A DNA stretch of 28,907 nucleotides. Origin: a virus. Position 1 is the stretch's first letter, and every line of letters starts with the position of its first letter. A model generated the notes under the pieces. The model was not told the origin of the DNA, ran no database searches, and saw nothing but the letters and a program-made list of their open reading frames with translations. Of this stretch, positions 6,642-28,318 are shown piece after piece. The stretch lies in IMG/VR virus record IMGVR_UViG_3300034105_001925, positions 1-28,907 of that record, one strand, 5' to 3'. Position numbers and translations under genes: made by a program.

Positions 6642-6810
6642 GGGAGAGGCTCATTTCTAAGGCCATGTCTTCATGAGTAACAGAATCTGCTAATTCATTT
6701 AACCAGCAATGATCACACACTGGCATATATTCATCAACAGCATTTTCATTACACTTAGGGCAGGTAGTAGCGTAGAATTCATCAAGGAATTCATCGTTTT
6801 CGAATGTCAT
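6631..6810 (-). CDS. Small zinc-ribbon-like acidic protein, 59 aa
   Basis: Begins MTFENDEFLDEFYATTCPKC at 6810 behind GAAAGG. C-P-x-C and VCDHC pairs separated by 12 residues form a plausible zinc ribbon, followed by an acidic helical tail. Precedes and overlaps the GP88 gene. Expressed from an internal TGTCAG promoter at 6847-6868. Confidence 0.72.
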   Translation of the reverse strand: MTFENDEFLDEFYATTCPKCNENAVDEYMPVCDHCWLNELADSVTHEDMALEMSLSLDY

Positions 6811-6826
6811 GGGGGCACGACCTTTC

Positions 6827-6976
6827 TTAGTTGTTGTTATTTTTTAATTCTAGCATAGCAGACTGACATTTTCTACCCTTGCGAGTATAAGTCTTTTTAG
6901 AAGGCACGGCGGAGGCAGCATTAGAACGGCGAAGTTCCATAAGTCTGCGTAATTCCTCAGCGGTTTTCTTAGTCAT
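6827..6976 (-). CDS. Small basic protein, 49 aa, leaderless
   Basis: Begins MTKKTAEELRRLMELRRSN at 6976. The first half is a basic amphipathic helix, then KKTYTRKGRKC and an Asn-rich tail, so nucleic-acid binding is plausible. TAAGAT ends exactly 6 nt before the ATG and a TTGATA lies 17 bp further up, predicting a leaderless mRNA. Its last third contains the promoter of the next gene. Confidence 0.62.
   Translation of the reverse strand: MTKKTAEELRRLMELRRSNAASAVPSKKTYTRKGRKCQSAMLELKNNNN
6847..6868 (-). promoter_or_regulatory. Intragenic TGTCAG-N10-TAGAAT promoter
   Basis: TGTCAG (6863-6868), 10 bp, TAGAAT (6847-6852) with TGC before it, within gene 6827-6976 and 36 bp upstream of the start at 6810. 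Confidence 0.65.
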
Positions 6977-6982
6977 AAACTA

Positions 6983-7011
6983 ATCTTAGCAGAATTGGGG
7001 AAAAATATCAA
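6983..7011 (-). promoter_or_regulatory. Sigma70-type leaderless promoter (TTGATA-N17-TAAGAT)
   Basis: TTGATA (7006-7011), 17 bp including TTTTTCCCCAA, TAAGAT (6983-6988), then 6 nt to the ATG at 6976. It is closely similar in spacer sequence to the promoter at 1314-1342. Confidence 0.65.
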
Positions 7012-7037
7012 ATAGACGTAAAGTGTTAAATGTCACA

Positions 7038-7053
7038 TGTGATAAATATCACG
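7038..7053. promoter_or_regulatory. CRP-like operator (TGTGA-N6-TCACG)
   Basis: Nine of ten consensus bases. Centre about 70 bp upstream of the predicted leaderless start at 6976. Confidence 0.55.
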
Positions 7054-7057
7054 ACGG

Positions 7058-7063
7058 CCCGGG
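7058..7063. repeat. CCCGGG palindrome, cassette E
   Basis: Only 4 bp from the CRP-like site and 6 bp from stem-loop copy 5. Confidence 0.5.
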
Positions 7064-7069
7064 CTGTTC

Positions 7070-7094
7070 TAGCAGTTTTAAATCTTGCTAAGGA
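7070..7094 (-). repeat. Operon-end stem-loop, copy 5 (covarying)
   Basis: TAGCA/TGCTA replaces GAGCA/TGCTC with pairing kept; the 11-nt loop and AGGA flank are conserved. It is 8 bp after the stop at 7103. Confidence 0.62.
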
Positions 7095-7102
7095 TTTTTA
7101 TT

Positions 7103-7255
7103 TTACTTTTTAAGTCGTTCAGTTCGCAAAGTAACTTGTAGCCTGCGAATTTCTTTTTCTAATTGGATGTTGCGTTGCCAAAAAGCAATCATCACTCCAA
7201 GCGATCCAGCTAAAGCAATTACAATTGCGATTAGTGTTCCGTTATCTAAAATCAT
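7103..7255 (-). CDS. Small single-pass membrane protein, 50 aa
   Basis: Begins MILDNGTLIAIVIALAGSL at 7255 (TAATG overlap). Residues about 7-26 form one hydrophobic segment, followed by a basic, helical, coiled-coil-like tail (EKEIRRLQVTLRTERLKK). This resembles small phage inner-membrane proteins, but no holin or spanin motif is visible. Last gene of the operon beginning at 8151. Confidence 0.65.
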   Translation of the reverse strand: MILDNGTLIAIVIALAGSLGVMIAFWQRNIQLEKEIRRLQVTLRTERLKK

Positions 7256-7440
7256 TACACACCCGCCATTTCTTTATAACACGCATTTACAAAAGTTTCA
7301 TGTGAAAATCTTTCGTTATCAACTTCGAACATCACAGAAAATTCATCTACTAAATCTGCGAATACAATTTCGTCAAGGATTAAATCTCTAAACTCATTTA
7401 GAATTTGAGCAGTAGCAACATAGTCTTTGCGAGTCATCAT
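7255..7440 (-). CDS. Small conserved phage protein, 61 aa
   Basis: Begins MMTRKDYVATAQILNEFRD; the second Met may be the true start. The pattern MTRKDY, then NERFSHETFVNAC, is one I recognise from many small phage and plasmid proteins of unknown function. Helical and acidic. TAA of the preceding gene touches its ATG. Confidence 0.72.
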   Translation of the reverse strand: MMTRKDYVATAQILNEFRDLILDEIVFADLVDEFSVMFEVDNERFSHETFVNACYKEMAGV

Positions 7441-7650
7441 TTATTTAACCACCTTTAGAATTGCGTATGAACCGTTTTCATTTACTTCAGCAAGCGCAGG
7501 CTCTAAAGCAGGCACTATAAATTTATGTAGCACTGATTCCAAAAGTTGAACTTGGTCTAAGTCGCTAAGTGCTAAGAATTGTTTTGCTACTGGATGATTC
7601 TCATCAAACTCAGTTACAAACTTTAGTGAGTGTTCTATTGCTATTGTCAT
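7441..7650 (-). CDS. Hypothetical protein, 69 aa
   Basis: Begins MTIAIEHSLKFVTEFDENH at 7650 behind AGGAAATAAAA. Helical with hydrophobic heptads (FLALSDLDQVQLLESVLHKF). No motif. Has an upstream intragenic TGTCAG promoter at 7693-7714. Confidence 0.7.
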   Translation of the reverse strand: MTIAIEHSLKFVTEFDENHPVAKQFLALSDLDQVQLLESVLHKFIVPALEPALAEVNENGSYAILKVVK

Positions 7651-7666
7651 TTTTATTTCCTATTCG

Positions 7667-7807
7667 TTAGTTGGATTCGGGTGTATTAAATAATTGTATA
7701 TCTTGGCACTGACAAGGCTCGACATGGTAGTCCTCGCCTATACCAAAAAAGATTAAGCCAGTTGAGTAGCAGTCCTCGCAAGGAATTGTTAAAACTGAGT
7801 TTATCAT
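7667..7807 (-). CDS. Small Cys-pair protein, 46 aa
   Basis: Begins MINSVLTIPCEDCYSTG at 7807, 3 bp after the upstream stop. CEDCYSTG and PCQCQ resemble half of a DnaJ-type zinc finger (C-x2-C-x-G then C-x-C). It could bind zinc. Function unknown. Confidence 0.62.
   Translation of the reverse strand: MINSVLTIPCEDCYSTGLIFFGIGEDYHVEPCQCQDIQLFNTPESN
7693..7714 (-). promoter_or_regulatory. Intragenic TGTCAG-N10-TACAAT promoter
   Basis: TGTCAG (7709-7714), 10 bp, TACAAT (7693-7698), inside gene 7667-7807 and 42 bp upstream of the start at 7650. Confidence 0.55.
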
Positions 7808-7810
7808 TGA

Positions 7811-8038
7811 TTAACCTACCTTTACGGCTATTGCTCGGTAAGTAGAATTACCAAACCAGCGAGATTGACGGCTATTGGTGTAGTAAGTAGGGCGTACCTG
7901 AACACGATAAGCCTCAGCGCCATCATAGTGAAGGCAAGCAGGGTGAATCTCCGCTGAGATAATTTCTCCCTCTACGGAATTGGAACGATAGATCTTGCCG
8001 ATTAGCAATTCCTCGATAGTGTACACATTTGCTGACAT
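7811..8038 (-). CDS. Hypothetical protein, 75 aa
   Basis: Begins MSANVYTIEELLIGKIYRS at 8038 behind GAAAGGTG. Beta-rich pattern (EGEIISAEIHPACLHY, AYRVQVRPTYY). No family recognised. TAATG overlap with the upstream 37-residue gene. Confidence 0.7.
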   Translation of the reverse strand: MSANVYTIEELLIGKIYRSNSVEGEIISAEIHPACLHYDGAEAYRVQVRPTYYTNSRQSRWFGNSTYRAIAVKVG

Positions 8039-8151
8039 TAGTTGTCACCTTTCTTTATTTCTTTAATTGTAGCGGATAGGACTGACAAAGCCTGAGCCTT
8101 GCTTGCGTTGCGTTGCGCTTCGATATGCGCCTTGTATTCGTCTAGTGTCAT
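8038..8151 (-). CDS. Small helical protein, 37 aa
   Basis: Begins MTLDEYKAHIEAQRNASK at 8151 behind GAAAGG and a TGTCAG promoter, and ends KEIKKGDN. One long amphipathic helix. Its C-terminal codons contain the promoter for the next gene, so the tail sequence may be set by promoter constraints. Confidence 0.6.
   Translation of the reverse strand: MTLDEYKAHIEAQRNASKAQALSVLSATIKEIKKGDN
8066..8087 (-). promoter_or_regulatory. Intragenic TGTCAG-N10-TACAAT promoter
   Basis: TGTCAG (8082-8087), 10 bp, TACAAT (8066-8071). The downstream sequence TACAATTAAAGAAAT is shared with the promoter at 3211-3232. Confidence 0.62.
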
Positions 8152-8182
8152 TTTTGACCTTTCGTTAATTGCTTACTATGTA

Positions 8183-8204
8183 AGTCTATACTATTAGACT
8201 GACA
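8183..8204 (-). promoter_or_regulatory. TGTCAG-N10-TAGACT promoter
   Basis: TGTCAG (8199-8204), 10 bp, TAGACT (8183-8188), 31 bp upstream of the operon start at 8151. Confidence 0.62.
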
Positions 8205-8252
8205 AAAGCGAATTAGAAATGCTAACAATTCGGACATTTTCTTATTTATTTT

Positions 8253-8268
8253 TGTGATCATTCTCACA
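8253..8268. promoter_or_regulatory. Perfect CRP-consensus operator
   Basis: TGTGA-N6-TCACA with all ten consensus bases. Centre about 84 bp upstream of the predicted start site of the promoter at 8183-8204. Confidence 0.62.
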
Positions 8269-8337
8269 TTGGGAAAAATTATGTAACAATTTAATAACAA
8301 TCTTAAAGCTAACGGCGTGTCGATTTGACTTTTGCGC

Positions 8338-8343
8338 CCCGGG
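8338..8343. repeat. CCCGGG palindrome, cassette F
   Basis: Part of the gene-free stretch 8152-8345, which holds promoter, TGTCCG-type motif (8229-8235 area), CRP site, the shared motif GGCGTGTCGAYTTGAC (8314-8329) and this palindrome. Confidence 0.5.
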
Positions 8344-8345
8344 CC

Positions 8346-8438
8346 CTATTCTTTAGAAAGTAAAAATAAAAAACGAAAAGCAAAAAATAAAGTTAAGAAA
8401 AATAAAGCTCTGCCGTCAGTAAAAAAAGTTAGATCCAT
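8346..8438 (-). CDS. Membrane micropeptide, 30 aa
   Basis: Starts MDLTFFTDGRALFF at 8438 with GGAG seven bases upstream, a convincing ribosome binding site. Residues about 11-27 are almost all Phe, Leu and Ala around one Arg, forming a single membrane helix. It is the last gene of the operon that starts at 9286. Very small phage membrane peptides often modulate host membrane enzymes or lysis, but nothing specific is visible here. Confidence 0.55.
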   Translation of the reverse strand: MDLTFFTDGRALFFLTLFFAFRFLFLLSKE

Positions 8439-8442
8439 TTTT

Positions 8443-8562
8443 TTATTCTCCATATTCTTTAAATAAATTTTCTAATTCTAAAATTTGTTCATCTGTTAAA
8501 TGATCAATATTAATTACGTTAGCAAAACCAAAAATATCATAGTTTAAATTATTTTTATTCAT
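8443..8562 (-). CDS. Small acidic protein, 39 aa
   Basis: Begins MNKNNLNYDIFGFANVI at 8562 behind GGGAGATAAA, ending LENLFKEYGE. The second half (LTDEQILELENLFKEYG) looks like one amphipathic helix. Function unknown; supported by the ribosome binding site and close packing. Confidence 0.6.
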   Translation of the reverse strand: MNKNNLNYDIFGFANVINIDHLTDEQILELENLFKEYGE

Positions 8563-8563
8563 T

Positions 8564-8782
8564 TTATCTCCCTAACAATTCAGTAAAATGTTCTTGTTTT
8601 TCATTTTCCAAAATCGCATCTTCAAAATCTAAAAGCGATTGGCGATAAGCAACAGGGTCACACTCTCGCAAAATCTGTGAAGGATAAAAAGTTAAATTAC
8701 CAATTTCAAAAACTGGATATGATTCGTCAAGCATTTCATCAAACCATGTTTTAATTTCAAAAGCGACATCAAAATCTAACAT
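8564..8782 (-). CDS. Hypothetical acidic protein, 72 aa
   Basis: Begins MLDFDVAFEIKTWFDEML at 8782 behind AGAGGAG. Acidic and helical with one short beta-like segment (YPVFEIGNLTFYPSQIL). No family recognised. Confidence 0.7.
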   Translation of the reverse strand: MLDFDVAFEIKTWFDEMLDESYPVFEIGNLTFYPSQILRECDPVAYRQSLLDFEDAILENEKQEHFTELLGR

Positions 8783-8958
8783 TATTTTTCTCCTCTAATT
8801 ATTTTGTTTATAACCAATAAGTCGCACTCTGCTCTGAGAGGCGTGTTTTTGTTAAGGCGTGAAGGTAACGCAGAAAGAAAGTCACGCAATTCTAATTCCG
8901 TTACGAAGGGCATTTTCCATGTGTTGCCGTGATATGAGGTAAGTGTAAGTGTTATCAT
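8782..8958 (-). CDS. Hypothetical protein, 58 aa
   Basis: Begins MITLTLTSYHGNTWKMPF at 8958 (TAATG overlap, GGAG upstream inside the previous gene) and ends INKIIRGEK. Short beta strands followed by a helix. Function unknown. Confidence 0.65.
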   Translation of the reverse strand: MITLTLTSYHGNTWKMPFVTELELRDFLSALPSRLNKNTPLRAECDLLVINKIIRGEK

Positions 8959-9107
8959 TATTTTTTCTCCATTACTCTGATTATGACATCTAAATCTTTT
9001 TCGGTAAGCAATACGCTTGCGCTACCCCATAGGGCTGCCCATGCGTTATCGCCATGAGCCTCTTTTGCTAAGGCATAAGCCAAATCTCTTTTTTCGTGGG
9101 TACTCAT
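8958..9107 (-). CDS. Small helical protein, 49 aa (paralogue of 10681-10830)
   Basis: Begins MSTHEKRDLAYALAKEAHG at 9107. It aligns without gaps to the protein of the plus-strand gene 10681-10830: LAKE-x-HG, ALWG-x-ASVLLTEKDL, then a VI-rich helix and EK at the end. Both are 49 residues. Two helices separated by an LWG turn are likely. Function unknown. The pair sits on opposite sides of the divergent switch, which suggests gene duplication or a shared regulatory role. Confidence 0.72.
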   Translation of the reverse strand: MSTHEKRDLAYALAKEAHGDNAWAALWGSASVLLTEKDLDVIIRVMEKK

Positions 9108-9286
9108 TATTTACACTCCTGACATGTGAACTTAGTGAACTTTTTATCTTTAGCAAATACCTCTAAATAATTATCCTCGCAATTAGAGCATGGGATAAGT
9201 GCGGTAGAGGCTCTGCCGTATAGGTGAGGCTCTAGTACGGATAACAGGGCGTTATCTATAACCTCTTGAGTTTTTAGTATAGTCAT
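9107..9286 (-). CDS. Zinc-ribbon-like protein, 59 aa
   Basis: Start MTILKTQEVIDNALLS at 9286 chosen because GAAAGGTGGTC and the TGTCAG promoter lie upstream; the frame extends to 9328 but would cross the promoter. C33-x2-C36 and C55-x2-C58 form a classic zinc ribbon. First gene of the operon 9286 to 8346. Confidence 0.75.
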   Translation of the reverse strand: MTILKTQEVIDNALLSVLEPHLYGRASTALIPCSNCEDNYLEVFAKDKKFTKFTCQECK

Positions 9287-9318
9287 ATTTGACCACCTTT
9301 CGTTTTCTTTATATGGCA

Positions 9319-9340
9319 AGTTTAGCATTAGGGTCTGACA
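9319..9340 (-). promoter_or_regulatory. TGTCAG-N10-TAAACT promoter
   Basis: TGTCAG (9335-9340), 10 bp, TAAACT (9319-9324) with TGC before it, 32 bp upstream of the start at 9286. The transcribed leader (TATAAAGAAA, then AAAGGTGGTC) matches the one at 9701. Confidence 0.68.
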
Positions 9341-9372
9341 TTTTTGCCTATTTAGGCATAGTGTCCGATGTG

Positions 9373-9540
9373 TTACTGGTCACACTCACAAGGCTGAGAG
9401 TAATCAAATTCGCAAAAGTAGCAACCTTGCGCCTCGAAATGCTTTTCGCAATAGTGGCGGAATTGGATCTCATCACAATGTAAGAACTGAGTGTAATCGG
9501 TAAGGTAATAGCGATTAACGGGGTGAAGGACAAGGCTCAT
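9373..9540 (-). CDS. Cys-rich zinc-binding-type protein, 55 aa (paralogue of 5493-5699)
   Basis: Start MSLVLHPVNRYYLTDY at 9540, overlapping the upstream stop as ATGA with GAAGG before it; a longer frame to 9564 is less likely. HCDEIQF, HYC and GCYFCEFDYSQPCEC match the pattern in gene 5493-5699. Probably a structural zinc site. Function unknown. Confidence 0.75.
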   Translation of the reverse strand: MSLVLHPVNRYYLTDYTQFLHCDEIQFRHYCEKHFEAQGCYFCEFDYSQPCECDQ

Positions 9541-9701
9541 AGAGATACCTTCCATTCTCCCCATGCGTTAAGGGATTCGGCAGACCGCTCAATATTCTGC
9601 TCGCAAACCTCGCAAAAGGTAAATTGCTCATCACAATATTCTGATATTGCGAGATTAGGGATATGCTCTGAGCATACTGTCATTTTTTCTAATGTAGTCA
9701 T
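9537..9701 (-). CDS. Small Cys-motif protein, 54 aa
   Basis: Begins MTTLEKMTVCSEHIPNL at 9701 behind GAAAGGTGGTC. It carries C-x3-P, YCDEQFTFC and EVCEQN; the Cys/His set may bind zinc, and YCDEQF is reminiscent of the CDEIQF of the next gene. First minus-strand gene left of the divergent switch. Confidence 0.7.
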   Translation of the reverse strand: MTTLEKMTVCSEHIPNLAISEYCDEQFTFCEVCEQNIERSAESLNAWGEWKVSL

Positions 9702-9735
9702 TTTGACCACCTTTCTTTAATTTCTTTATACTGTA

Positions 9736-9757
9736 AGTTTAACAGAGGGGTCTGACA
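9736..9757 (-). promoter_or_regulatory. TGTCAG-N10-TAAACT promoter (leftward arm of the switch)
   Basis: TGTCAG (9752-9757), 10 bp, TAAACT (9736-9741) with TGT before it, 34 bp upstream of the start at 9701. Confidence 0.68.
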
Positions 9758-9790
9758 TTTTCAGGGGTACAAATAGAACAATTCGGACAT

Positions 9791-9822
9791 TGTGATGTAT
9801 AACACATGTGAGGAATATCACA
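9791..9822. promoter_or_regulatory. Two abutting CRP-like operators
   Basis: TGTGA-N6-ACACA (9791-9806, one mismatch) directly abuts a perfect TGTGA-N6-TCACA (9807-9822). The centres are about 70 and 86 bp upstream of the predicted leftward start site. Confidence 0.6.
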
Positions 9823-9869
9823 AGAACGGGGGAAATTATAACAATTACGTAACAATTTTATTTTTATCG

Positions 9870-9894
9870 GCGTGTCGACTTGACACGACCCGGG
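9870..9894. promoter_or_regulatory. Inverted repeat plus CCCGGG at the centre of the divergent region
   Basis: CGTGTC-GACTT-GACACG is a perfect 6-bp-arm inverted repeat (9871-9887), immediately followed by CCCGGG (9889-9894). GGCGTGTCGAYTTGAC is also found in cassette F, and its complement core CGACACGCC occurs near 5759 and 9968. This is the midpoint of the 346-bp gene-free stretch 9702-10047. Confidence 0.55.
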
Positions 9895-9939
9895 ATCTCT
9901 TTTGCCAATGAACAATGTCCGTTTTGTTAGCATTTGTCG

Positions 9940-9955
9940 TGTGAGGTTTATCACA
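9940..9955. promoter_or_regulatory. Perfect CRP-consensus operator (rightward arm)
   Basis: TGTGA-N6-TCACA, all ten bases. Centre about 74 bp upstream of the predicted rightward start site. Confidence 0.62.
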
Positions 9956-9993
9956 AAAATAGTTTTGCGACACGCCCGAGATACATGCCAAAA

Positions 9994-10015
9994 TGTCAGT
10001 ACCCCCTGCTAGAAT
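9994..10015 (+). promoter_or_regulatory. TGTCAG-N10-TAGAAT promoter (rightward arm)
   Basis: TGTCAG (9994-9999), 10 bp, TAGAAT (10010-10015) with TGC before it, 32 bp upstream of the start at 10048. Confidence 0.7.
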
Positions 10016-10047
10016 TGCGGTATAAGAAAAAGAAAGGAGAATACTAA

Positions 10048-10215
10048 ATGAGTATTTTCACTAAGTTCGCTACTGTAAGCGATTACCCTAAAGGTCTAAT
10101 GAACCTTTGCCCATGCGGACAGGTTGTCCTAGCACCTGCCCTATATCACGCAGGACAGGCTCACTGGGCTAACCCTGATAAGTGTAAGGAATTGTGGGCT
10201 AACTCACAAAAATAG
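10048..10215 (+). CDS. Small Cys-motif protein, 55 aa
   Basis: Begins MSIFTKFATVSDYPKG behind AAAGGAG. LCPCGQVV and a later KCKELW give C-x-C plus one Cys; with two His residues a zinc site is possible. First gene of the rightward early set. Its 3' end contains a CRP-like site for the next promoter. Function unknown. Confidence 0.7.
   Translation: MSIFTKFATVSDYPKGLMNLCPCGQVVLAPALYHAGQAHWANPDKCKELWANSQK
10193..10208. promoter_or_regulatory. CRP-like operator (TGTGG-N6-TCACA)
   Basis: Nine of ten consensus bases, within the last codons of gene 10048-10215. It is 38 bp upstream of the next TGTCAG, the same spacing as at 9940/9994. Confidence 0.5.
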
Positions 10216-10221
10216 TTTCCC

Positions 10222-10316
10222 GACACACCCCCAAAAGGGGTCAAAATGTCAGTACCCCCTGCTATACTTCCACTATACAAACAAACAAAGGACAGAAAAT
10301 GAACACTAACAAAATC
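10222..10316 (+). repeat. Duplicated promoter-leader-start module, copy 1
   Basis: GACACACCCCCAAAAGGGGT (10222-10241), TGTCAG promoter, AACAAACAAAGGACAGAAA leader and the first codons (Met-Asn-Thr-Asn) are nearly identical to 10452-10547. ACCCC/GGGGT can form a 5-bp stem. Confidence 0.75.
10247..10268 (+). promoter_or_regulatory. TGTCAG-N10-TATACT promoter
   Basis: TGTCAG (10247-10252), 10 bp, TATACT (10263-10268) with TGC before it, 30 bp upstream of the start at 10299. Confidence 0.7.
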
Positions 10317-10433
10317 GAAGGTACTTGCGGAATCTGCGGAGATGAGTACATTGGCACTAAGGCTCAGATGTATTGCTACAATTCTTTAGAGTGCTCATCT
10401 GATAACGGAGATTCTTTCATCTTTAACAAGTAA
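10299..10433 (+). CDS. Small Cys-pair protein, 44 aa
   Basis: Begins MNTNKIEGTCGICGDEY behind AAAGGACAG. C-x2-C (TCGIC) followed by MYCYN and LEC gives four Cys, a plausible treble-clef or zinc-ribbon-like fold. It shares its N-terminus and promoter with the next gene through a local duplication, but the bodies differ. Confidence 0.7.
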   Translation: MNTNKIEGTCGICGDEYIGTKAQMYCYNSLECSSDNGDSFIFNK

Positions 10434-10448
10434 GTGGTCTAAATCACA
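10433..10448. promoter_or_regulatory. CRP-like operator (AGTGG-N6-TCACA)
   Basis: Eight of ten consensus bases. It is 28 bp upstream of TGTCAG, one helical turn closer than the two sites to its left. Confidence 0.45.
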
Positions 10449-10451
10449 TTA

Positions 10452-10547
10452 GACACACCCCCAAAAGGGGTTAAAATGTCAGTGCCCTAGGCTATAATTC
10501 TCAGTATAACAACAAACAAAGGACAGAAAATGAACACTAACACAATC
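10452..10547 (+). repeat. Duplicated promoter-leader-start module, copy 2
   Basis: Near-identical to 10222-10316 through the C4-A4-G4 hairpin, TGTCAG promoter, leader and first four codons, then diverges. Confidence 0.75.
10477..10498 (+). promoter_or_regulatory. TGTCAG-N10-TATAAT promoter
   Basis: TGTCAG (10477-10482), 10 bp, consensus TATAAT (10493-10498), 31 bp upstream of the start at 10530. Confidence 0.72.
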
Positions 10548-10670
10548 TACGCAACAGATGAAATCTGCTGGGCTATCGAAAATGACGATATTTGCGACGG
10601 CTTCGGTTGCGCTCCATGCTCAATCGAAATTGACGGAGAATTCACTCCCCTATATCGCTCAACTAACTAA
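10530..10670 (+). CDS. Small Cys-rich acidic protein, 46 aa
   Basis: Begins MNTNTIYATDEICWAIEND behind AAAGGACAG. EICW, DICDGFGCAPC gives four Cys, acidic overall. Unlike its neighbour beyond the shared N-terminus. Function unknown. Confidence 0.68.
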   Translation: MNTNTIYATDEICWAIENDDICDGFGCAPCSIEIDGEFTPLYRSTN

Positions 10671-10680
10671 GGATAAATAA

Positions 10681-10830
10681 ATGACTAAATATGAATTAAG
10701 AGAATTAGCAGTATCTCTCGCTAAAGAAAATCACGGTACAGATAAGTACGCTGTACTATGGGGAGCAGCCTCAGTGCTACTCACAGAAAAAGATTTACAA
10801 ATTATTATTAACGTATTGGAGAAAGAATAA
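10681..10830 (+). CDS. Small helical protein, 49 aa (paralogue of 8958-9107)
   Basis: Begins MTKYELRELAVSLAKENHG and matches the minus-strand paralogue at LAKE-x-HG and LWG-x-ASVLLTEKDL, the same length. GGATAA lies before the start. Probably a two-helix protein. Role unknown. Confidence 0.72.
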   Translation: MTKYELRELAVSLAKENHGTDKYAVLWGAASVLLTEKDLQIIINVLEKE

Positions 10831-11019
10831 ATGATAAACGCAACACTAACAAGCGTTACAGGTGGAACAAAAGTTATGGGTTTCACAACAAAAGAAAATC
10901 TAATCGAATTTATTGATAAGTACGCAGAAATTTTACCAATTGGAAATGCTGTAAATATAGACGCACCTCTCGCAGGTATTCACTCAGGCTGGATTCATGG
11001 TAAGGCTAAGAAAATTTAA
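10831..11019 (+). CDS. Hypothetical protein, 62 aa
   Basis: The ATG follows the previous stop directly, with GGAGAAAG upstream. MINATLTSVTGGTKVMGF, then ENLIEFIDKYAEILPIGNAV: alternating beta and helix. No family recognised. Last gene of the rightward early set before a possible terminator. Confidence 0.7.
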   Translation: MINATLTSVTGGTKVMGFTTKENLIEFIDKYAEILPIGNAVNIDAPLAGIHSGWIHGKAKKI

Positions 11020-11027
11020 AACGTGCT

Positions 11028-11056
11028 CACTATTTTTTAGTGTGTAGGTTTTTTTA
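11028..11056 (+). terminator. Possible intrinsic terminator
   Basis: CACTA/TAGTG around a T-rich loop, then GTGTAGG and seven T, 8 bp after the stop at 11019. The stem is short. Confidence 0.4.
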
Positions 11057-11134
11057 AATGTGTATCATACACAAATACAAAATATTCAGATTTTGTCCAA
11101 AACCACTTTATAAATTTTCAGGGGATAATTGTGC

Positions 11135-11140
11135 TACAAT
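11135..11140 (+). promoter_or_regulatory. Leaderless -10 box (TACAAT)
   Basis: TGC-TACAAT (extended -10), then exactly 6 nt to the ATG at 11147. No good -35 box. Confidence 0.6.
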
Positions 11141-11146
11141 AGGTCT

Positions 11147-11236
11147 ATGACCGATGACACATATACTGGAGATAACTGCTGTGCAGCATGCACATGTACT
11201 AATCCTCATTCTTCAAAACCACTACCTACAGAGTAA
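11147..11236 (+). CDS. Cys-rich microprotein, 29 aa (CCxxCxC)
   Basis: A 29-codon frame starts at the predicted leaderless site and carries NCCAACTCTNPH. The same C-C-x2-C-x-C motif recurs in the next gene. Such a motif could hold a metal ion. It ends 4 bp before the next ATG. Leaderless start plus motif sharing support it despite its size. Confidence 0.55.
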   Translation: MTDDTYTGDNCCAACTCTNPHSSKPLPTE

Positions 11237-11240
11237 TCTA

Positions 11241-11375
11241 ATGGCAATCCTAGAAAACCTTGAATACTCCTGGGATAAACCAGAACCACAATACGAATCT
11301 CTGGCTATGAAAATATTTTCAGATTTTTGTTGTAATGGATGTAGCTGTAAATCCGAATCAGACCATAACAAATAA
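11241..11375 (+). CDS. Cys-rich small protein, 44 aa (CCxxCxC)
   Basis: Begins MAILENLEYSWDKPEPQYE, with a helical middle and FCCNGCSCKSES at the end. I chose this start, not the longer frame from 11154, because it follows the upstream microgene directly. The shared CCxxCxC motif suggests the pair act or fold alike. No family known to me. Confidence 0.6.
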   Translation: MAILENLEYSWDKPEPQYESLAMKIFSDFCCNGCSCKSESDHNK

Positions 11376-11385
11376 GGTTTTTGTA

Positions 11386-11402
11386 TATAACGGTTTGTTA
11401 TA
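11386..11402. repeat. Inverted repeat between convergent genes
   Basis: TATAAC-GGTTT-GTTATA, 6-bp arms, in the gap between convergent genes ending at 11375 and 11441. It may terminate transcription weakly in either direction; there is no clear U-tract. Confidence 0.35.
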
Positions 11403-11440
11403 ATTAAAAATTTCGGGGAATATAAATTCTTTCTGGCCTC

Positions 11441-11635
11441 TTACCATTTACCAACTGGACATTTAGCATTTGCTAACATAGACTTAGCAGCCATAAAACA
11501 TCCACATTTCTTACATGTCTGGGTTTTAGGCCTAAACCAATCACAGGTTTTACAAATATCCAGGCGAAGTTCTTTTATATCTTTTTCAACTCTCGGCGAA
11601 CCATTAATTAAGTCAAAAGGGGTTACATCATCCAT
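11441..11635 (-). CDS. Four-Cys zinc-binding-type phage protein, 64 aa
   Basis: Begins MDDVTPFDLINGSPRVEK at 11635. LRLDICKTCDWFRPKTQTCKKCGCFMAAKS followed by KCPVGKW is a recurrent phage small-protein pattern with two C-x2-C pairs, found in many tailed phages next to fibre genes; I associate it with the DUF6171 type but cannot confirm. TATAAT ends exactly 6 nt before the ATG, so it is leaderless. It stands alone on the minus strand, divergent from the fibre genes. Confidence 0.8.
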   Translation of the reverse strand: MDDVTPFDLINGSPRVEKDIKELRLDICKTCDWFRPKTQTCKKCGCFMAAKSMLANAKCPVGKW

Positions 11636-11641
11636 ATACTT

Positions 11642-11647
11642 ATTATA
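11642..11647 (-). promoter_or_regulatory. Leaderless -10 box (TATAAT)
   Basis: TATAAT, 6 nt, ATG at 11635. Confidence 0.65.
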
Positions 11648-11684
11648 GCCTATAGGGAGGCTAGGAGCCGATTTAAGACATGTT

Positions 11685-11699
11685 TGGATCTTTGATCCA
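11685..11699. promoter_or_regulatory. Inverted repeat between divergent leaderless promoters
   Basis: TGGATC-TTT-GATCCA with further imperfect symmetry (GACAT on the left, ATGTTGTC on the right). It sits between the promoters at 11642 (left) and 11788 (right), so an operator is plausible. Confidence 0.45.
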
Positions 11700-11787
11700 T
11701 ATGTTGTCTAGGGTAGGGTTTGTTATCTCTATTTTCGGCGACTTCTATATTCCGTCGAATTTACATGATTGCTTATATAATGTTTGA

Positions 11788-11793
11788 TATAAT
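11788..11793 (+). promoter_or_regulatory. Leaderless -10 box (TATAAT)
   Basis: TATAAT, 6 nt, GTG start at 11800. Confidence 0.6.
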
Positions 11794-11799
11794 AGCTAT

Positions 11800-12072
11800 G
11801 TGAATATTCATAACTTTTTGACTTTAAGCAACACCACAGTTACCGAACTTACTCCGTCTAGCAACCATAGCGGAATTGACCTAACTATCCAGAATGTAAA
11901 TACATCTGGCTACCTATATGTCGGCGGAGCCAATGTCTCGTCTACTAACTACGGTTATAGAATTTCTCCAAACCATGCAATATCTTTTGAGATAGGTGCT
12001 AGAGGAAGAATGTATATTATTGCTTCTTCAAATGGATTAAACGCAGCAGTTATCAATATTGGTCTTGAGTAA
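11800..12072 (+). CDS. Small structural/fibre-associated protein, 90 aa, GTG start
   Basis: Starts with GTG at 11800, exactly 6 nt after TATAAT; an ATG two bases earlier is followed by an immediate stop. The Ser/Thr/Asn-rich beta-sandwich-like pattern (VTELTPSSNHSGIDLTIQNVN, YLYVGGANVSS, ISFEIGARGRMYIIAS) is typical of small phage virion proteins. It overlaps the next gene as TAATG, and the two probably work together. Confidence 0.68.
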   Translation: MNIHNFLTLSNTTVTELTPSSNHSGIDLTIQNVNTSGYLYVGGANVSSTNYGYRISPNHAISFEIGARGRMYIIASSNGLNAAVINIGLE

Positions 12073-12810: not shown

Positions 12811-13425
12811 CTACAAATTAAATTTACTATATGGCATTTTTTCACCATAGTAATTAATCTCAAAATCTTCAAATTTTTCATAAAAATCTTTTGAGTGCAT
12901 GAAGCAAGAAAAATCAATTAAAACCTTATCTAGATTATTATTTATAACTTCATTCCAAGTTGTCATAGATGTCCAATAATCATATTTCTTTTTACTGTTT
13001 TTAAAAGTATCTATTACATCTTTTAATAATTTATTTTCTTTTTTTGCATAATAGTTAGAGTTGTAAAAATATGGTGGTACATGTTTTACATCTTCAAAAA
13101 CTACCATATCTTGGTCATTATAGTTTGCAAGTATTTGATCTAACGGCATACTACATACAGAATCTATGTCAGCATAGACTCCTCCATTTTTATAGGTTAT
13201 GATATAACGCCAAATGTCTGCCTGTATTTGTGGCTTCACTTCCTTGTATATTTCATATAGCTCTAAATCTTCTTGCTTAACAAAGATTTCTCTTTCTTCG
13301 TGATCCATAAAAACATAGTTCCAACTTGGATTTAATTTTATCCATGTCTCAGAAGCTTTCTTTAATGTAATAGGAAGATCTTCAAATTTATAGTTATGTG
13401 TTTGGTATACTGTTTTATGTATCAT
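12811..13425 (-). CDS. GT32-type glycosyltransferase (DXD sugar-binding family)
   Basis: 204 residues. MIHKTVYQTHNYKFEDLP at the N-terminus is the IPKiIHQ-like first strand, and QADIWRYIITYKNGGVYADIDSVC contains the family core with the DXD motif (D86-I-D88) for sugar-nucleotide and metal binding. The family (Gly_transf_sug, Och1/TcdA-like) transfers hexoses. In a phage it may glycosylate virion fibres or alter host surface sugars to block superinfection. TATAAT ends 6 nt before the ATG, so a leaderless mRNA is likely. It is alone on the minus strand among plus-strand fibre genes, as an acquired cargo gene would be. Confidence 0.85.
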   Translation of the reverse strand: MIHKTVYQTHNYKFEDLPITLKKASETWIKLNPSWNYVFMDHEEREIFVKQEDLELYEIYKEVKPQIQADIWRYIITYKNGGVYADIDSVCSMPLDQILANYNDQDMVVFEDVKHVPPYFYNSNYYAKKENKLLKDVIDTFKNSKKKYDYWTSMTTWNEVINNNLDKVLIDFSCFMHSKDFYEKFEDFEINYYGEKMPYSKFNL

Positions 13426-15971: not shown

Positions 15972-16745
15972 ATGGCAATTGAAAGCATAGGTACTTTAGT
16001 ACCAACAAAAATTCCAGGTCTTGCTGACCCAGCTGATATTCAGGTTGCACTTAGAACATACCATTATGGATCTGATACCTTTAATACAGCTGAAACAAAT
16101 AAGGCAAACTTAGTCGTACCGTCAATTGCACATACACTTAATAGTTTACAGGATCAGATTACCGCTATTGACACAGGAGGATCACTTCAAGCCTCAAGCT
16201 TTAATGCAAAAGGTGATTTACTTTCAGCATCAGCAAATGACACCTTATCTGTTGTAACCGTTGGAGCTAACGGAACAATCTTAACTGCAAATAGCGCAAC
16301 AGCTTCTGGATTGTCATGGGCTACTCCAGCTGCAGCAACTGCTATAACTACGTCATCTTCTGTAACAGATGCAAGAATTTCCTGGGATACTACAAACAAA
16401 CAAATTCAAGTTGGTAATGGAACAAGCCTTTTAAATTTTCAACCTTTTAATGTAAATACAACTGCTAAGACTGCAGGGTATACATTTGTTTTATCTGATG
16501 CTAATACGCTAGTTCAAATGAATGGTGCTTATGCCTTTACCGTTCCACTTAATGCGACAGTTACGTATCCTATTGGAACTCAAATACATTTAATTGCACT
16601 TACAACAGGAGTTACGGTTTCATTTACTTCTGGTATTACTTCATATGCAACCCCAGGAGCAAAAATACGTGCAGCTGGATCAATGGCAACATTAATAAAG
16701 CTAAATACAGACACTTGGGTACTTGCAGGAGACTTGATTGCATAA
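15972..16745 (+). CDS. Tail fibre protein, 257 aa
   Basis: N-terminus MAIESIGTLVPTKIPGLADPADIQ; the middle has SFNAKGDLLSASANDTLSVV and VGANGTILTANSATASGLSWATP, motifs shared with the fibre at 19937 (AKGDLIVGSADDAVARL). The C-terminal 85 residues (FTVPLNATVTYPIGT, then TPGAKIRA and TWVLAGDLIA) match the C-terminus of the 740-residue fibre at 22267, a recurrent phage fibre tip domain. Function: host contact, by family. Confidence 0.82.
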   Translation: MAIESIGTLVPTKIPGLADPADIQVALRTYHYGSDTFNTAETNKANLVVPSIAHTLNSLQDQITAIDTGGSLQASSFNAKGDLLSASANDTLSVVTVGANGTILTANSATASGLSWATPAAATAITTSSSVTDARISWDTTNKQIQVGNGTSLLNFQPFNVNTTAKTAGYTFVLSDANTLVQMNGAYAFTVPLNATVTYPIGTQIHLIALTTGVTVSFTSGITSYATPGAKIRAAGSMATLIKLNTDTWVLAGDLIA

Positions 16746-17446
16746 TGCCAATTCCAGGAGTAACGGGTTCTTCAGATAATCGCCAGCCAGGAACTCCAAC
16801 TATTGGAGCTGCAACTGCTGGTAATGCTAGTGTATCTGTAGCTTTTACTGCTCCAGCAAATACTGGAAAACCTAATACATCTTTAACCTATACAGCAATT
16901 ACAACTCCAAGTTCAATTACTGGAACTAGTCCTACATCTCCAATTACTATTTCTGGTTTATCTAATGGTACTTCCTATACCGCAGTTGTTAAGTTAAATA
17001 ATACCGTTCAAGATTCTCTAAGTTCTGCTGCTAGTAATTCATTTACTCCAGTAGCGCCACCGTTCTTCCCATTCTTCCCACCATTCTTCCCATTCTTCCC
17101 GTTCTTCCCACCATTCTTCCCACCATTCTTCCCAACATTTGTTCAGCCAACACCATCATTTACATTTGCGACTGCCAGTAACCCAGGTTCCACTTCTATG
17201 GTTATTGAATTTGGAGGAAATGATGCAGCTGCTTACACCATAACAACTTCACCAGCTCCTCCAGAACCAGGAGGACTTGCTTCAGGTCCATACGTTCCCT
17301 TGGCTCCTTACAACATTGGTATGAGCATTACATTGACTGGTCTTTTGCCAAGCACAGCATACACATTTACTTATACACTTTATGCTAACAGTAATTTCAC
17401 TGGGCCAACTGCTTCACTTACTCGCAGTAACACCACTACCGCATAA
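16745..17446 (+). CDS. FN3-PFFP-FN3 adhesin-like virion protein, 233 aa
   Basis: Start at 16745 (TAATG overlap) rather than 30 bp earlier. Residues about 13-103 form a fibronectin-III-like domain (TISGLSNGTSYTAVV). Residues 105-131 are a PFFP-repeat linker and about 135-233 form a second FN3-like domain (LTGLLPSTAYTFTYTL). The Hint protein at 24506 has the same FN3-PFFP plan and, like this one, directly follows a fibre with the PLNA/YP-GT tip domain. Likely an extended surface arm. Confidence 0.75.
   Translation: MPIPGVTGSSDNRQPGTPTIGAATAGNASVSVAFTAPANTGKPNTSLTYTAITTPSSITGTSPTSPITISGLSNGTSYTAVVKLNNTVQDSLSSAASNSFTPVAPPFFPFFPPFFPFFPFFPPFFPPFFPTFVQPTPSFTFATASNPGSTSMVIEFGGNDAAAYTITTSPAPPEPGGLASGPYVPLAPYNIGMSITLTGLLPSTAYTFTYTLYANSNFTGPTASLTRSNTTTA
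17057..17136 (+). repeat. In-frame PFFP coding repeat, short array
   Basis: Repeats of CC(A/G)TTCTTC encode Pro-Phe-Phe-Pro blocks. Units are multiples of 3 bp, so copy-number changes keep the reading frame. Confidence 0.8.
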
Positions 17447-17499: not shown

Positions 17500-18045
17500 T
17501 TATTTAGGGAATTTTTGCATCCAAGCCCTAGTCTTTGGCGTAATACCTTTCCAAGAAGACCAGTCATTTCCCCCGTTGGACATATAGTATGCAATCTCCG
17601 CATTTTTTACGGGATTGAATAACTCAGCGTTTGTATCTAGATCAAACTTATCTCTACGATCAGGACCTAGATTATCGATCATATTAATTTGAAACATCCC
17701 ATAAGAGGAGTCTCCAGTCTTATGATTGCCATTGTATGCCAATGGGCGACCATTAGATTCTTTTTTAGCAATAGCCCAAGCTACTACTAAGTCATTACCC
17801 TTAAATCCCACAAGGGATAAAAGTTGCTTTAGTTCTTTATCTGTTAAGTGTGTTCTATTTTCAAATTTAGCTAACATTTTTTCCTTAGAAACAACAAATG
17901 CCTCCTTGTCGGAGGCAGGAGCATCTACAGACTTATTTATTAGTAAATTATTTTCGGTACTTGACGCATTAGCAGCATTACTAAAAGGTGCAATAACACC
18001 AACTAATGCTAGGATTCCAATCCAAGCTTGCTTGTCTCTTCTCAT
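17500..18045 (-). CDS. Secreted lytic transglycosylase/lysozyme-like endolysin
   Basis: 181 residues. A signal peptide is clear: RRDK, a hydrophobic stretch to about residue 22, then a likely cut after ANA. The domain at about 75-180 has KKESNGRP (catalytic Glu96), SSYGMFQIN (114-121) and late AEIAYYMSNGGNDWSSW, the SLT/GH23 lysozyme-like fold that cleaves peptidoglycan glycan strands. A signal-peptide lysin can be exported by the host and need not wait for a holin pore. A perfect AGGAGG and its own promoter support the start. It is on the opposite strand to the fibres and has its own terminator. Confidence 0.85.
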   Translation of the reverse strand: MRRDKQAWIGILALVGVIAPFSNAANASSTENNLLINKSVDAPASDKEAFVVSKEKMLAKFENRTHLTDKELKQLLSLVGFKGNDLVVAWAIAKKESNGRPLAYNGNHKTGDSSYGMFQINMIDNLGPDRRDKFDLDTNAELFNPVKNAEIAYYMSNGGNDWSSWKGITPKTRAWMQKFPK

Positions 18046-24505: not shown

Positions 24506-25837
24506 ATGGCTAAAAAGACAGGTAAACGTTCAGCTGCATCTAATGACTTTTTAGAGCCATTTGCACCAACAAGCGTAAGTGCTACGGATGTTGGAACAGG
24601 CAGAGCGTTTAACAATGGCGCAGCAACAGTTACATTTTCTTTGCCTGCATTATCTCCTGCTGCTACATCATTTACCGTAACTTCATCTCCTGGCGGATAT
24701 ACTGGAACTGGATCATCTTCTCCAATTACAGTAACTGGACTTCAGTCTGCCACTGCTTATACATTTACAGCAACTGCTACTAACGCTTCTGGAACTTCTC
24801 AGGCATCTACAGCATCAGCTTCTATTACCGCAACAACAGTTCCTGCTCAAATGGCAGCTCCAACCCCTACTGCTGGAGTTAATCAAAACTCTATTGCTTT
24901 TTCAGCCCCAGCAACTGGTGGAAAAACTATAAGTAGTTACACAGTAACTGGATCTGATGGCACATCTGGAACAGGCGCTACTTCTCCAATTACTATTGCT
25001 GACACTGGTGGAACTTCACAGACTTATACAGTTACTGCTACTAACGATAACGGAACAAGCGTTGCTTCCGCTGCGTCTGGTTCTATTACTACATTATCCC
25101 CCTTCTTTCCACCGTTTTTCCCTCCATTTTTTCCATTCTTCCCATTCTTCCCACCATTCTTTCCACCATTCTTTCCATTCTTTCCACCGTTTTTCCCACC
25201 AACATTTGGCCCATTCTTCCCACCGTTCTTCCCATTCTTTCCACCGTTCTTCCCACCAACATTTGGTCCGTTCTTCCCACCATTCTTCCCAACATTCTTT
25301 ATTGGCCAACCACCACCTGCTGGGCCAGGTAGCAAAGGATCACTTGGACCTAACGTACTTGTTAGAGGAGAAAATGGTTTAATTCGTGCACAAGACTTGG
25401 TAGTTGGAGATGTCGTTAAATCTCTTGATATTCCAGGAATTCCACAAAACTTTACAACTATTGGAACAACTGCAGAAGAACTTGCTGAGATGTCCTGGGA
25501 TACAGAGTCTGTGTTATCAGCAACTCCAGTACTAACTACAATTAATAGAGTACAGATCATACAAAGAACAGGTGCAGTGTCTGTAAATGCTGAAGTGCTT
25601 ACAAGAAACCACTACCTACTTATTGAAAGAAATGAAGTTGTAAAAGCTATAAAAGCTGGAGATCTTTTAGAAACAGATAAAATGTTTGATTATAACACAT
25701 CTACATTTGTTAATATAACTGAGCTAGAGTTTTTAGATATCACATATTATGCGTACAGCATTAACTGTGAACCTTACGACTTCTATTTAACAGAGCATAC
25801 ATTAACATTTGATAATAATGAATGGTATCCAGAATAG
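24506..25837 (+). CDS. FN3-FN3-PFFP-Hint protein, 443 aa
   Basis: Two FN3-like domains (about 15-110 and 112-197), a 65-residue PFFP linker (199-264) and a C-terminal Hint domain (about 279-443). The Hint start S279-LGPNVLV aligns with the C-x-x-P-x-T-x-V start of inteins and BIL domains, with Ser instead of Cys. RAQDLVVGDVV, block B T366-R-N-H369 and block F YAYSINCEPYDFYLTEH are all present. The usual C-terminal His-Asn and extein are absent because the protein ends there, so N-terminal cleavage, not splicing, would be expected if active. Likely a virion surface protein. Confidence 0.85.
   Translation: MAKKTGKRSAASNDFLEPFAPTSVSATDVGTGRAFNNGAATVTFSLPALSPAATSFTVTSSPGGYTGTGSSSPITVTGLQSATAYTFTATATNASGTSQASTASASITATTVPAQMAAPTPTAGVNQNSIAFSAPATGGKTISSYTVTGSDGTSGTGATSPITIADTGGTSQTYTVTATNDNGTSVASAASGSITTLSPFFPPFFPPFFPFFPFFPPFFPPFFPFFPPFFPPTFGPFFPPFFPFFPPFFPPTFGPFFPPFFPTFFIGQPPPAGPGSKGSLGPNVLVRGENGLIRAQDLVVGDVVKSLDIPGIPQNFTTIGTTAEELAEMSWDTESVLSATPVLTTINRVQIIQRTGAVSVNAEVLTRNHYLLIERNEVVKAIKAGDLLETDKMFDYNTSTFVNITELEFLDITYYAYSINCEPYDFYLTEHTLTFDNNEWYPE
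25100..25293 (+). repeat. In-frame PFFP coding repeat, long array
   Basis: About 190 bp of near-identical 9- to 12-bp units encode PFFP blocks, broken twice by a Thr-Phe-Gly-containing spacer. It is similar to 17057-17136. Confidence 0.85.
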
Positions 25838-25849
25838 TTAGGATAAAAG

Positions 25850-26356
25850 ATGATTATAGATAATAATAATCAATCTATAAGATTTAGTCCTGACATAAAA
25901 CAATATCCAAAAGAATTATTTGGATCTTGGTTCTGTTTTACAAAAGTAGAAGATCATCCAATTATTGCAGGAATGTGTTCTGTTTACTTTAATGACGAAC
26001 ATCCAAGTGGGACAATGATAGTATCTAACTATATACTAGATCAATATCCAGACATATATGCCACCTGGGATAAAGATTATATGTCAAATAAAATGTTTGT
26101 ATCTCCAAAATTAAGAAAAAATGGAATAGGAAAAAATGCACTTATTGTTGGGGATCAATTTATTAAGTTTTTAGGAAATGAATTAAAGTATATCTACGGA
26201 GAACATGAAAATGGAGATTTTCTTTTTAATGGAGCATACTCTTTAAATAAAAAAAATAATAATAAAGATGTTAATGATTCTGACATGTTTGATTTTAGAG
26301 ACCCAGCATACCCAATAATACATTTTGATAAAAGGTTTATAAAATATGAAGTATAA
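25850..26356 (+). CDS. GNAT-like acetyltransferase, 168 aa
   Basis: MFVSPKLRKNGIGKNALIVGDQFI (residues 82-105) fits GNAT motif A (R-x-x-G-x-G, acetyl-CoA pyrophosphate binding) after a beta strand. The preceding strands (GSWFCFTKVED, MIVSNYILDQ) fit the fold. Proteins of this size usually acetylate amines. Substrate unknown. It opens the AT-rich modification cluster and is 12 bp after the Hint gene. Confidence 0.6.
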   Translation: MIIDNNNQSIRFSPDIKQYPKELFGSWFCFTKVEDHPIIAGMCSVYFNDEHPSGTMIVSNYILDQYPDIYATWDKDYMSNKMFVSPKLRKNGIGKNALIVGDQFIKFLGNELKYIYGEHENGDFLFNGAYSLNKKNNNKDVNDSDMFDFRDPAYPIIHFDKRFIKYEV

Positions 26357-26918
26357 ATATAGAGATATAAAAGTATTTACAAAAAATATACCCACATTAA
26401 AATTTGAAAATATTTTATCTTTAAATAATAATAGATATAAAGAAATATATACTTATGATAATTTTAAAAAAATAGGATACAAAAAAAATAGTAATTCTAA
26501 AAATATATTTCAAGAATATAATATAGAGATATATAATGTATATAAAGAAATATCAAAGCTATTAAATGAAGCCTGTAATCATTATCTAATAGATCAAAAT
26601 CGGCAAAATTACTTTATTAAAGGTAAAGTATTTGAGTATAACAAAGATCATAACAATGAAGTTTTTGATTTTCCTGGAAGAGATATTCCAATTTTTCATG
26701 GGTATGTTATTTTGGGGGAAGAGGGCTTGAAGCAAACATACTATACCAATAAGAGTAAAAAAGAGTTTATTTTTAGTAAAAACACAATTACACTCTCATC
26801 ACCAACAAATCTTATAAATAACAAAGTTAGCAACAGCTGCAAAGTTATAGAGTATTATATATCACCATTATCGTCTATTATTCAAAATGAAGAAGGTCTT
26901 TGGGTTCCAATTTTATAA
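26346..26918 (+). CDS. Hypothetical protein, 190 aa, possibly inactive cupin-like
   Basis: Overlaps the previous gene by 11 bp. Very AT-rich, Lys/Asn/Tyr-rich. The C-terminal part (IPIFHGYVILGEEGLKQTYY, EFIFSKNTITLSSPT, CKVIEYYISPL) reads like the strands of a double-stranded beta helix, and it lies beside two oxygenase genes. However, the His-x-Asp metal motif is missing, so it may be a degenerate relative. No confident family. Confidence 0.6.
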   Translation: MKYKYRDIKVFTKNIPTLKFENILSLNNNRYKEIYTYDNFKKIGYKKNSNSKNIFQEYNIEIYNVYKEISKLLNEACNHYLIDQNRQNYFIKGKVFEYNKDHNNEVFDFPGRDIPIFHGYVILGEEGLKQTYYTNKSKKEFIFSKNTITLSSPTNLINNKVSNSCKVIEYYISPLSSIIQNEEGLWVPIL

Positions 26919-27607: not shown

Positions 27608-28318
27608 ATGGATATTTATAATGAAAACGAAAATCACTGGTTTACTAAAGATAGGTCTGAAACAGCTTCAGACAGAGTTGCACGAATAATGCCTCAAAGT
27701 AATATTAATGTTAGTAATCCAGGATTAGGTTTAAATATTTATCATAATGTTTTTTCTAAAGATGATTCTGAAAGATATATTAATACTCTTGAGCATAATT
27801 TGTCTGGAGATAAAAAATATAAATGGTCAAAAGCCAAGGTAACAAATTCTGATGCTCCAATTAAAAAAGCAAGAGATTGTGTAGACTTTAAATATAAGCA
27901 AGAAAATCTTGGGCCAAGAGATGAATCTAATGAAGACTTAATTGATCTTCATGAAGAGATCTACCAAAAGCTAAAGATGTGTATAAATGATTATGCACAT
28001 TATTGGGGAATCAATGTTACATATTACGAAGCTTTTAACTTTGTAAAATATGAAGGAGAAGGAACTCATTTTAATATTCATGCTGATCATGGTCCAGCAT
28101 ATAACTGTACTGTGTCTGCTGTTATATATATTAACGATGATTATGAAGGCGGAGAAATTAAGTTTCCAAGATTAGATAATTTTGTTCATACTCCAAAAGT
28201 TGGAGATATAGCAATTTTTCCTTCAAACTATATTTATGAACATGCGTCATTACCAATGAAAACAGGAACTAAATATTGCGTTGTTATTATGACAGATATT
28301 AATGAACTGAGTCACTAA
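27608..28318 (+). CDS. Prolyl-4-hydroxylase-type 2OG-Fe(II) oxygenase, 236 aa
   Basis: THFNIHADHGPA gives H158-x-D160, then SAVIYINDDYEGGEIKFPRLD, a VGDIAIFPSNYIYEHAS strand with H212, and TGTKYCVVIMTD with K222 to bind 2-oxoglutarate. This is the complete P4Hc signature. Such enzymes hydroxylate proline (or other residues) in proteins using O2 and 2-oxoglutarate, and are frequent in environmental phages. A collagen-like fibre with Y-position Pro and two PFFP-rich proteins in the same window are plausible targets. Own promoter at 27550-27578. Confidence 0.88.
   Translation: MDIYNENENHWFTKDRSETASDRVARIMPQSNINVSNPGLGLNIYHNVFSKDDSERYINTLEHNLSGDKKYKWSKAKVTNSDAPIKKARDCVDFKYKQENLGPRDESNEDLIDLHEEIYQKLKMCINDYAHYWGINVTYYEAFNFVKYEGEGTHFNIHADHGPAYNCTVSAVIYINDDYEGGEIKFPRLDNFVHTPKVGDIAIFPSNYIYEHASLPMKTGTKYCVVIMTDINELSH

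Follow-up and report, generated by a model that had tools for sequence, protein, structure and literature searches.

A Ser1-type Hint domain ends an FN3-PFFP arm protein of an uncultured aquatic virus and is linked to a probable GNAT-fold acyltransferase gene

The stretch of DNA analysed here, hereafter called the window, is 28,907 nucleotides long and originated from an uncultured aquatic bacterial virus. The open reading frame at positions 24506-25837 is a real gene: its ATG at 24506 stands behind AAGGGG, a good ribosome site, and its stop codon ends at 25837. The product is called the arm protein below. The features of this gene and of the two genes behind it were located as follows.

24506-25837, plus strand: arm protein of 443 amino acids, with FN3 domain(s), a PFFP repeat and a C-terminal Hint domain of the Ser1 type (serine at position 1)
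24617-24817, plus strand: FN3 domain, residues 38-104 (Pfam PF00041, E 1.6e-4, below the gathering threshold)
25100-25291, plus strand: PFFP repeat spacer, residues 199-262
25334-25336, plus strand: Lys277, at -2 of the predicted scissile bond; Lys at -1/-2 is associated with the GNAT-like neighbour gene
25340-25834, plus strand: Hint domain, residues 279-443 (the C-terminal 165 residues)
25340-25342, plus strand: Ser279, the candidate position-1 nucleophile, aligned with intein residue 1 and hedgehog Cys258
25601-25612, plus strand: block B, T366-x-x-H369 (T366-R-N-H369)
25766-25768, plus strand: Cys421 in the NCEP[YF]D motif of block F; that this Cys is invariant is partly a search bias
25811-25813, plus strand: Asp436, replacing the C-terminal intein Asn
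25850-26356, plus strand: probable acyltransferase gene with a GNAT fold, separated from the Hint gene by 12 bases
26346-26918, plus strand: D2, a conserved second neighbour of Ser1 Hint tips

A second FN3-like stretch of the arm protein (about residues 113-197) had no Pfam match. Another FN3-PFFP protein is encoded at window positions 16715-17446, where the repeat lies between FN3-like domains and there is no Hint domain.

The original prediction, made from the letters of the window, was that the FN3-PFFP protein ends in a Hint-like domain resembling bacterial intein-like (BIL) domains and hedgehog, with blocks A, B and F and Ser at position 1. Profiles, an AlphaFold2 model and PDB matches all bore this out. 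Block A (SLGPNVLVRGENGLIRAQDLVVGD), block B (TRNH), block F (YSINCEPYDFY) and an altered block G (LTFDN) were seen in the sequence, and the numbering of Ser279 and His369 (codon 25610-25612) was exact. Single-sequence scans of Pfam, PHROGs and NCBIfam gave no match for the Hint tail, and tblastn of the window Hint domain against phages and plasmids gave weak matches only, the best being phage NCTB (E 0.02). The relationship emerged with profiles. A profile built only from relatives with Cys at position 1 (Cys1) matched residues 283-434 with E 2.7e-15, and one built from three phage NCTB Hint domains alone matched the window with E 2.4e-7 (Z set to 100,000 in both searches); an initial mixed Cys1 alignment proved too diverse for searching. 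The Cys1 tips themselves matched Pfam Intein_splicing with E down to 1.5e-7, below gathering. Searched against the PDB, a Ser1-only profile found the Clostridium thermocellum BIL domain (7e-5) and the gp41-1 intein (1.6e-3), in alignments that pair Ser1 with intein residue 1 and the block-G Asp with the final Asn. Judged by these sequence comparisons, the similarity to Hint domains is far beyond chance.

Structure prediction, which had been proposed as a check, gave a Hint fold. AlphaFold2 run on a 65-row alignment returned a model with a pLDDT of 91.6 and a pTM of 0.86, and the predicted structure was compared with known structures using Foldseek and VIA-align. All PDB matches were inteins, BIL domains or hedgehog (Z 13.6-17.3), the best being Tetrahymena thermophila BIL2 (Z 17.3), the C. 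thermocellum BIL domain (Z 16.5), the Mtu RecA intein (Z 16.2) and hedgehog 1at0 (Z 16.0). Ser279, residue 7 of the model, paired with intein residue 1 and hedgehog Cys258, and Asp436, model residue 164, with RecA intein residue 440. The C-terminal domain of the arm protein is thus confidently predicted to be a Hint fold.

Relatives were collected by a scan of viral contigs with close relatives (185 found, 80 fetched) and a second scan with a Tyr-Ser type (184 found); 65 distinct Ser1 tips were left after repeats were removed. The tips were grouped by their Ser1, and the only departures among the fetched relatives were the Cys1 tips, which are distant, and two tips that are badly degraded. The block-B His was present in 65 of the 65 distinct Ser1 tips, as was Ser or Thr at -3 of it, so that Ser279 and His369, whose conservation had also been named as a check, are kept across the Ser-type family. 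Both were among the 12 invariant columns of a 37-row alignment whose most divergent members share about 23% identity with the window, and none of the search patterns contained Ser1 or the block-B His. The invariance of NCEP[YF]D is not independent in this way, since the motif formed part of the search pattern. The Ser1 codon was TCN in 52 tips and AGY in 13; with both serine codon blocks in use, Ser has been retained while the codon block switched. Block G carried Asp in 63 of 65 tips, preceded by His, Tyr, Phe or Met (Phe in the window). The two others (L289:3299-4426 and L303:2729-3754) kept the Asn, had Cys at -2 (CGS), and are possible intermediates between the Cys1 and Ser1 types.

These counts bear on the view that the Hint fold is now an inert structural tip, a non-catalytic cap or receptor-binding domain. 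The block-G Asn is lost, and unrelated small domains end other PFFP arms at the same place. Three Hint-derived PFFP-arm tips (L055:4819-6093, L058:3-632 and L098:3502-4422) keep the fold signature, although Ser/Cys1, the block-B motif and Asn are mostly gone and most or all catalytic residues have been lost; in this branch the Hint fold has apparently been reused without catalysis, which indicates that it can serve in that way. Against such a role in the window family stand Ser1 and the block-B His, constant in 65 distinct sequences while the surrounding identity falls to 23-40%, and the survival of Ser1 through codon-block switches. An inert tip is regarded as quite unlikely here.

The C-terminal end of the domain was as the original prediction had described, with neither a C-terminal His-Asn nor an extein: Asp436 occupies the place of the Asn, seven residues follow (NNEWYPE), and the protein ends. 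The adjacent Asp-Asn (436-437) was considered as the His-Asn pair and rejected, as the wider alignment sets Asp436 on the Asn. The invariant Cys421 suggested a class 3 intein mechanism, which goes with the absence of Ser/Cys1, a WCT motif and a block F Cys as nucleophile; this was ruled out, Ser1 being present, the block F Cys lying off the F:4 position (by eye, in the 37-row alignment) and the invariance of Cys421 being search-biased. An ordinary splicing intein or selfish element would share the Hint fold and blocks A, B and F. The architecture rules it out: the domain lacks a C-extein, a +1 Cys/Ser/Thr host segment and an endonuclease, has Asp for Asn and always stands at the protein end. 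We give this reading almost no weight.

Among solved structures the domain is nearest to BIL domains (T. thermophila BIL2, 6y75 and 6tmm; C. thermocellum, 2lwy), with which it shares the Hint fold (Z 16-17), a position-1 nucleophile, TxxH, the lack of a +1 nucleophile and variable host proteins. It differs from them in having Ser rather than Cys at position 1 and a fixed block-G Asp, in always standing at the end of a phage arm, and in its GNAT-like partner gene. Among BILs the B-type comes closest: these domains are without the C-terminal motif and undergo N-terminal cleavage (PMC7765530). The Hint domain of the arm protein was set beside the B-type by its motif pattern, which fits; the C-terminal His-Asn of A-type BILs is replaced by Phe-Asp. 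The Hog-Hint domain of hedgehog (1at0, 6tyy) resembles it in a reaction restricted to the N-terminal side, a C-terminal Hint domain and the pairing of Ser279 with Cys258, and differs in having a sterol-recognition region, for which the seven residues behind Asp436 leave no counterpart, a Hedge domain and a nucleophile other than Ser.

Among phage isolates, one Ser1 query found no match and the other weak matches only, and the Hint domains present were of the Cys1 type, borne by tail proteins in jumbo phages and in some others; Alcaligenes phage Afa-NA1 is one isolate with a C-terminal Cys1 Hint domain. Those of jumbo phages (NCTB, whose record is annotated 'contains intein domain'; Alexandravirus, for example Dickeya phage AD1; Erwinia pEa_SNUABM; Yersinia phage fHe-Yen9-02) are likewise C-terminal on annotated tail or virion proteins. 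They differ in keeping Cys1 and His-Asn, in their collagen-like rather than PFFP/GAF arms, and in the lack of the GNAT-like gene and D2. No virion proteomics for Dickeya phage AD1 was found in its paper. Cys1 tips of uncultured phages (L025, L039, L044, L065, L073, L093 and L106) belong to the same Hint family and sit on PFFP arms like that of the window, in most cases with the same 2OG oxygenase gene following; they differ in Cys1, a His-Asn-Lys ending and, again, the absence of GNAT and D2.

The gene directly behind the arm gene gave a Pfam match of E 0.037 and a predicted structure with a pLDDT of 66.7, whose best structural matches were nearly all GNATs (Z <=6.8). Residues P86, R89 and G92 were invariant in the protein and were compared with the R-x-x-G-x-G/A acyl-CoA loop. 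From the model, the product is a probable GNAT-fold acyltransferase. In counts that include repeated contigs, 63 of the 82 Ser1 ORFs had this gene behind them, and it followed none of the 10 Cys1 ORFs, the 6 other Hint ORFs or the 106 PFFP loci with different tips; D2 stood behind most Ser1 tips and was absent behind the same 10, 6 and 106. In a reverse scan with the GNAT protein, each of the 35 loci found lay directly downstream of a Hint ORF. Within the Ser1 family the gene went with a Lys at -1/-2, occurring with 42 of the 43 tips that have such a Lys and with none of the 22 that do not; a search through the full length of ten contigs (up to 112 kb) with Lys-free Ser1 tips did not find the gene. 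The tree indicated that GNAT and Lys were gained once and jointly lost once or twice. A single clade of the Lys-bearing rows was rejected (p-AU 0.0006), a single clade of the losses was not (p-AU 0.36), and a phylogenetic sign test of Lys against GNAT had too few independent pairs for significance. Because the tree holds so few independent events, the link across these sequences is graded as suggestive. This small number and the weak GNAT assignment count against the reaction scheme proposed below. The partner gene, the Lys beside the scissile bond and the large family with alternative tips all lie beyond the original prediction.

When profiles were compared, a 2OG oxygenase identity for D2 found no support. 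A gene for a 2OG-Fe(II) oxygenase lies at window positions 27608-28318; such a gene is found just behind most FN3-PFFP arm genes, including 76 of 106 other-tip loci, and prolyl hydroxylation of PFFP arms by it is one idea.

A serine at position 1 together with TxxH is the machinery of an N-O acyl shift. In the reaction proposed here, Ser279, aided by T366-x-x-H369, would attack the Gly278-Ser279 peptide bond and convert it to an ester. As Asp436 stands in place of Asn and there is no C-extein, neither splicing nor Asn cyclisation would follow. Following the established course of Hint reactions, as in B-type BILs and hedgehog (PMC7765530), the ester in front of Ser279 would be resolved by water or a different nucleophile, and the FN3-PFFP arm would shed the Hint domain and be left with the new C-terminus ...Ser-Lys277-Gly278. 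The neighbouring GNAT-like enzyme would most likely acylate Lys277, which would decide whether its amine can help to resolve the ester or would complete the tip of the arm. On balance we lean towards this reading, in which the tip is specialised for the first Hint reaction only, with cleavage or transfer as the outcome and the GNAT-like enzyme acting on Lys277. The putative self-processing role of the Hint tip is well supported by the predicted fold and by conservation, and viruses with Ser1 Hint tips probably cut or chemically re-join their own fibre ends. The lost Asn and the branch without catalytic residues (L055, L058 and L098) argue against first-step catalysis.

The ester might instead serve covalent anchoring, as the original prediction suggested, being passed from Ser279 to a lysine, a hydroxyl or another nucleophile on another arm, another virion protein or the host surface. 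The arm would then be held covalently, much as hedgehog acquires cholesterol or T. thermophila BIL2 forms an isopeptide bond with a lysine. With the Asn step lost, the ester would be free for transfer, and the Lys at -1/-2 in 43 of 65 Ser1 tips is paired with a probable acyltransferase able to cap amines. The nearest fold match, BIL2, uses Hint chemistry to attach the ubiquitin-like domain upstream of it to the amine of a lysine (PMC8616854). The Lys beside the bond may, however, do no more than shape the active site, both Lys and GNAT are missing from 22 of 65 Ser1 tips, and hydrolysis or simple autocleavage alone accounts for the sequence data equally well. Anchoring is considered unlikely, if deserving of some weight. 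A more specific scheme of fibre coupling, in which the activated ester of the Ser1 tip passes the flexible aromatic arm to an amine or hydroxyl and a dedicated GNAT-like enzyme acylates the adjacent Lys, is rather unlikely; the acceptor may be a neighbouring Lys on another arm, a virion protein or the host envelope, and the acylation may control or end the reaction. If true, viruses would have their own equivalent of hedgehog lipidation or of isopeptide conjugation by BIL2.

Cleavage could also have a purpose in assembly, the Hint domain acting like the C-terminal peptidase S74 chaperone by aiding the arm to assemble and then being cut off at the serine. S74 chaperones (T5 pb1, K1F endosialidase) are similarly C-terminal on phage fibres and cut themselves at a serine, and the serine of phage T5 pb1 occupies the equivalent topological position (Thr1263-Ser1264; PMC4690869); their fold and motif are unrelated. 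The Hint domain is always C-terminal, and short SSKRFKHSI stubs that resemble S74 form the ends of some PFFP arms. There is, on the other side, no sign of Hint domains trimerising or chaperoning, and the arm protein had no S74 match in Pfam at E up to 10. We regard a detachable folding helper as improbable; it would in any case give the cleavage a purpose and not replace the first-step reaction favoured above.

A PFFP pattern scan of IMG/VR indicated that FN3-PFFP arms are common there and bear differing C-terminal tips. Very Cys-rich miniatures of 20-40 residues, SSKRFKHSI stubs, Ig/FN3 and Hint domains were seen among them (for example L005, L012, L016, L021, L038 and L116), and the arms look like a tip-swapping system. 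The arms of Hint relatives are themselves diverse (PFFP, GAFGAF, SPFGVFGF and others), with Hint last in all, and the Ser1 Hint tips are a large unnamed phage family. Some contigs carry two Hint arm genes (L132 and L157 on one 63.5-kb contig; the L253 contig), and others have in addition a small stand-alone Hint-like ORF (L320:496-1020) comparable to NCTB BN7874_135. Two scans of GTDB genomes found no relatives and hence gave no host clue. A 96.5-kb contig of a relative carries, in order, terminase, portal, major head protein and tail fibre genes and the Hint arm with its neighbours, followed later by a baseplate wedge gene, DnaB helicase and UvsX. The genes on either side put the arm gene in a virion region, in keeping with the proposed reading. 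From this gene content, a contractile-tail phage is likely.

No paper describing Hint domains as phage-fibre tips was found in the open-access literature, and jumbo-phage records mention an 'intein domain' in gene names only. The linkage of Ser1 tips to the GNAT-like gene and D2 is new and previously unreported. In the Ser1 family, Hint chemistry would be pared down to its opening step and placed on virion arms, together with a probable modifying enzyme that is linked to it, and ester chemistry in the maturation or coupling of phage fibres becomes a testable question. Compact Ser1 Hint domains may also provide serine-based ester formation for protein engineering.

Elsewhere in the window, about 5 kb beside the fibre genes (6641-11800) holds only ORFs of <80 amino acids, mostly small ones on the minus strand, and the sole tRNA gene is a tRNA-Asp at 1433-1507. 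Glycosyltransferase-like and lysozyme/transglycosylase-like genes (12811-13425 and 17500-18045, minus strand; named by eye) lie reversed inside the fibre region.
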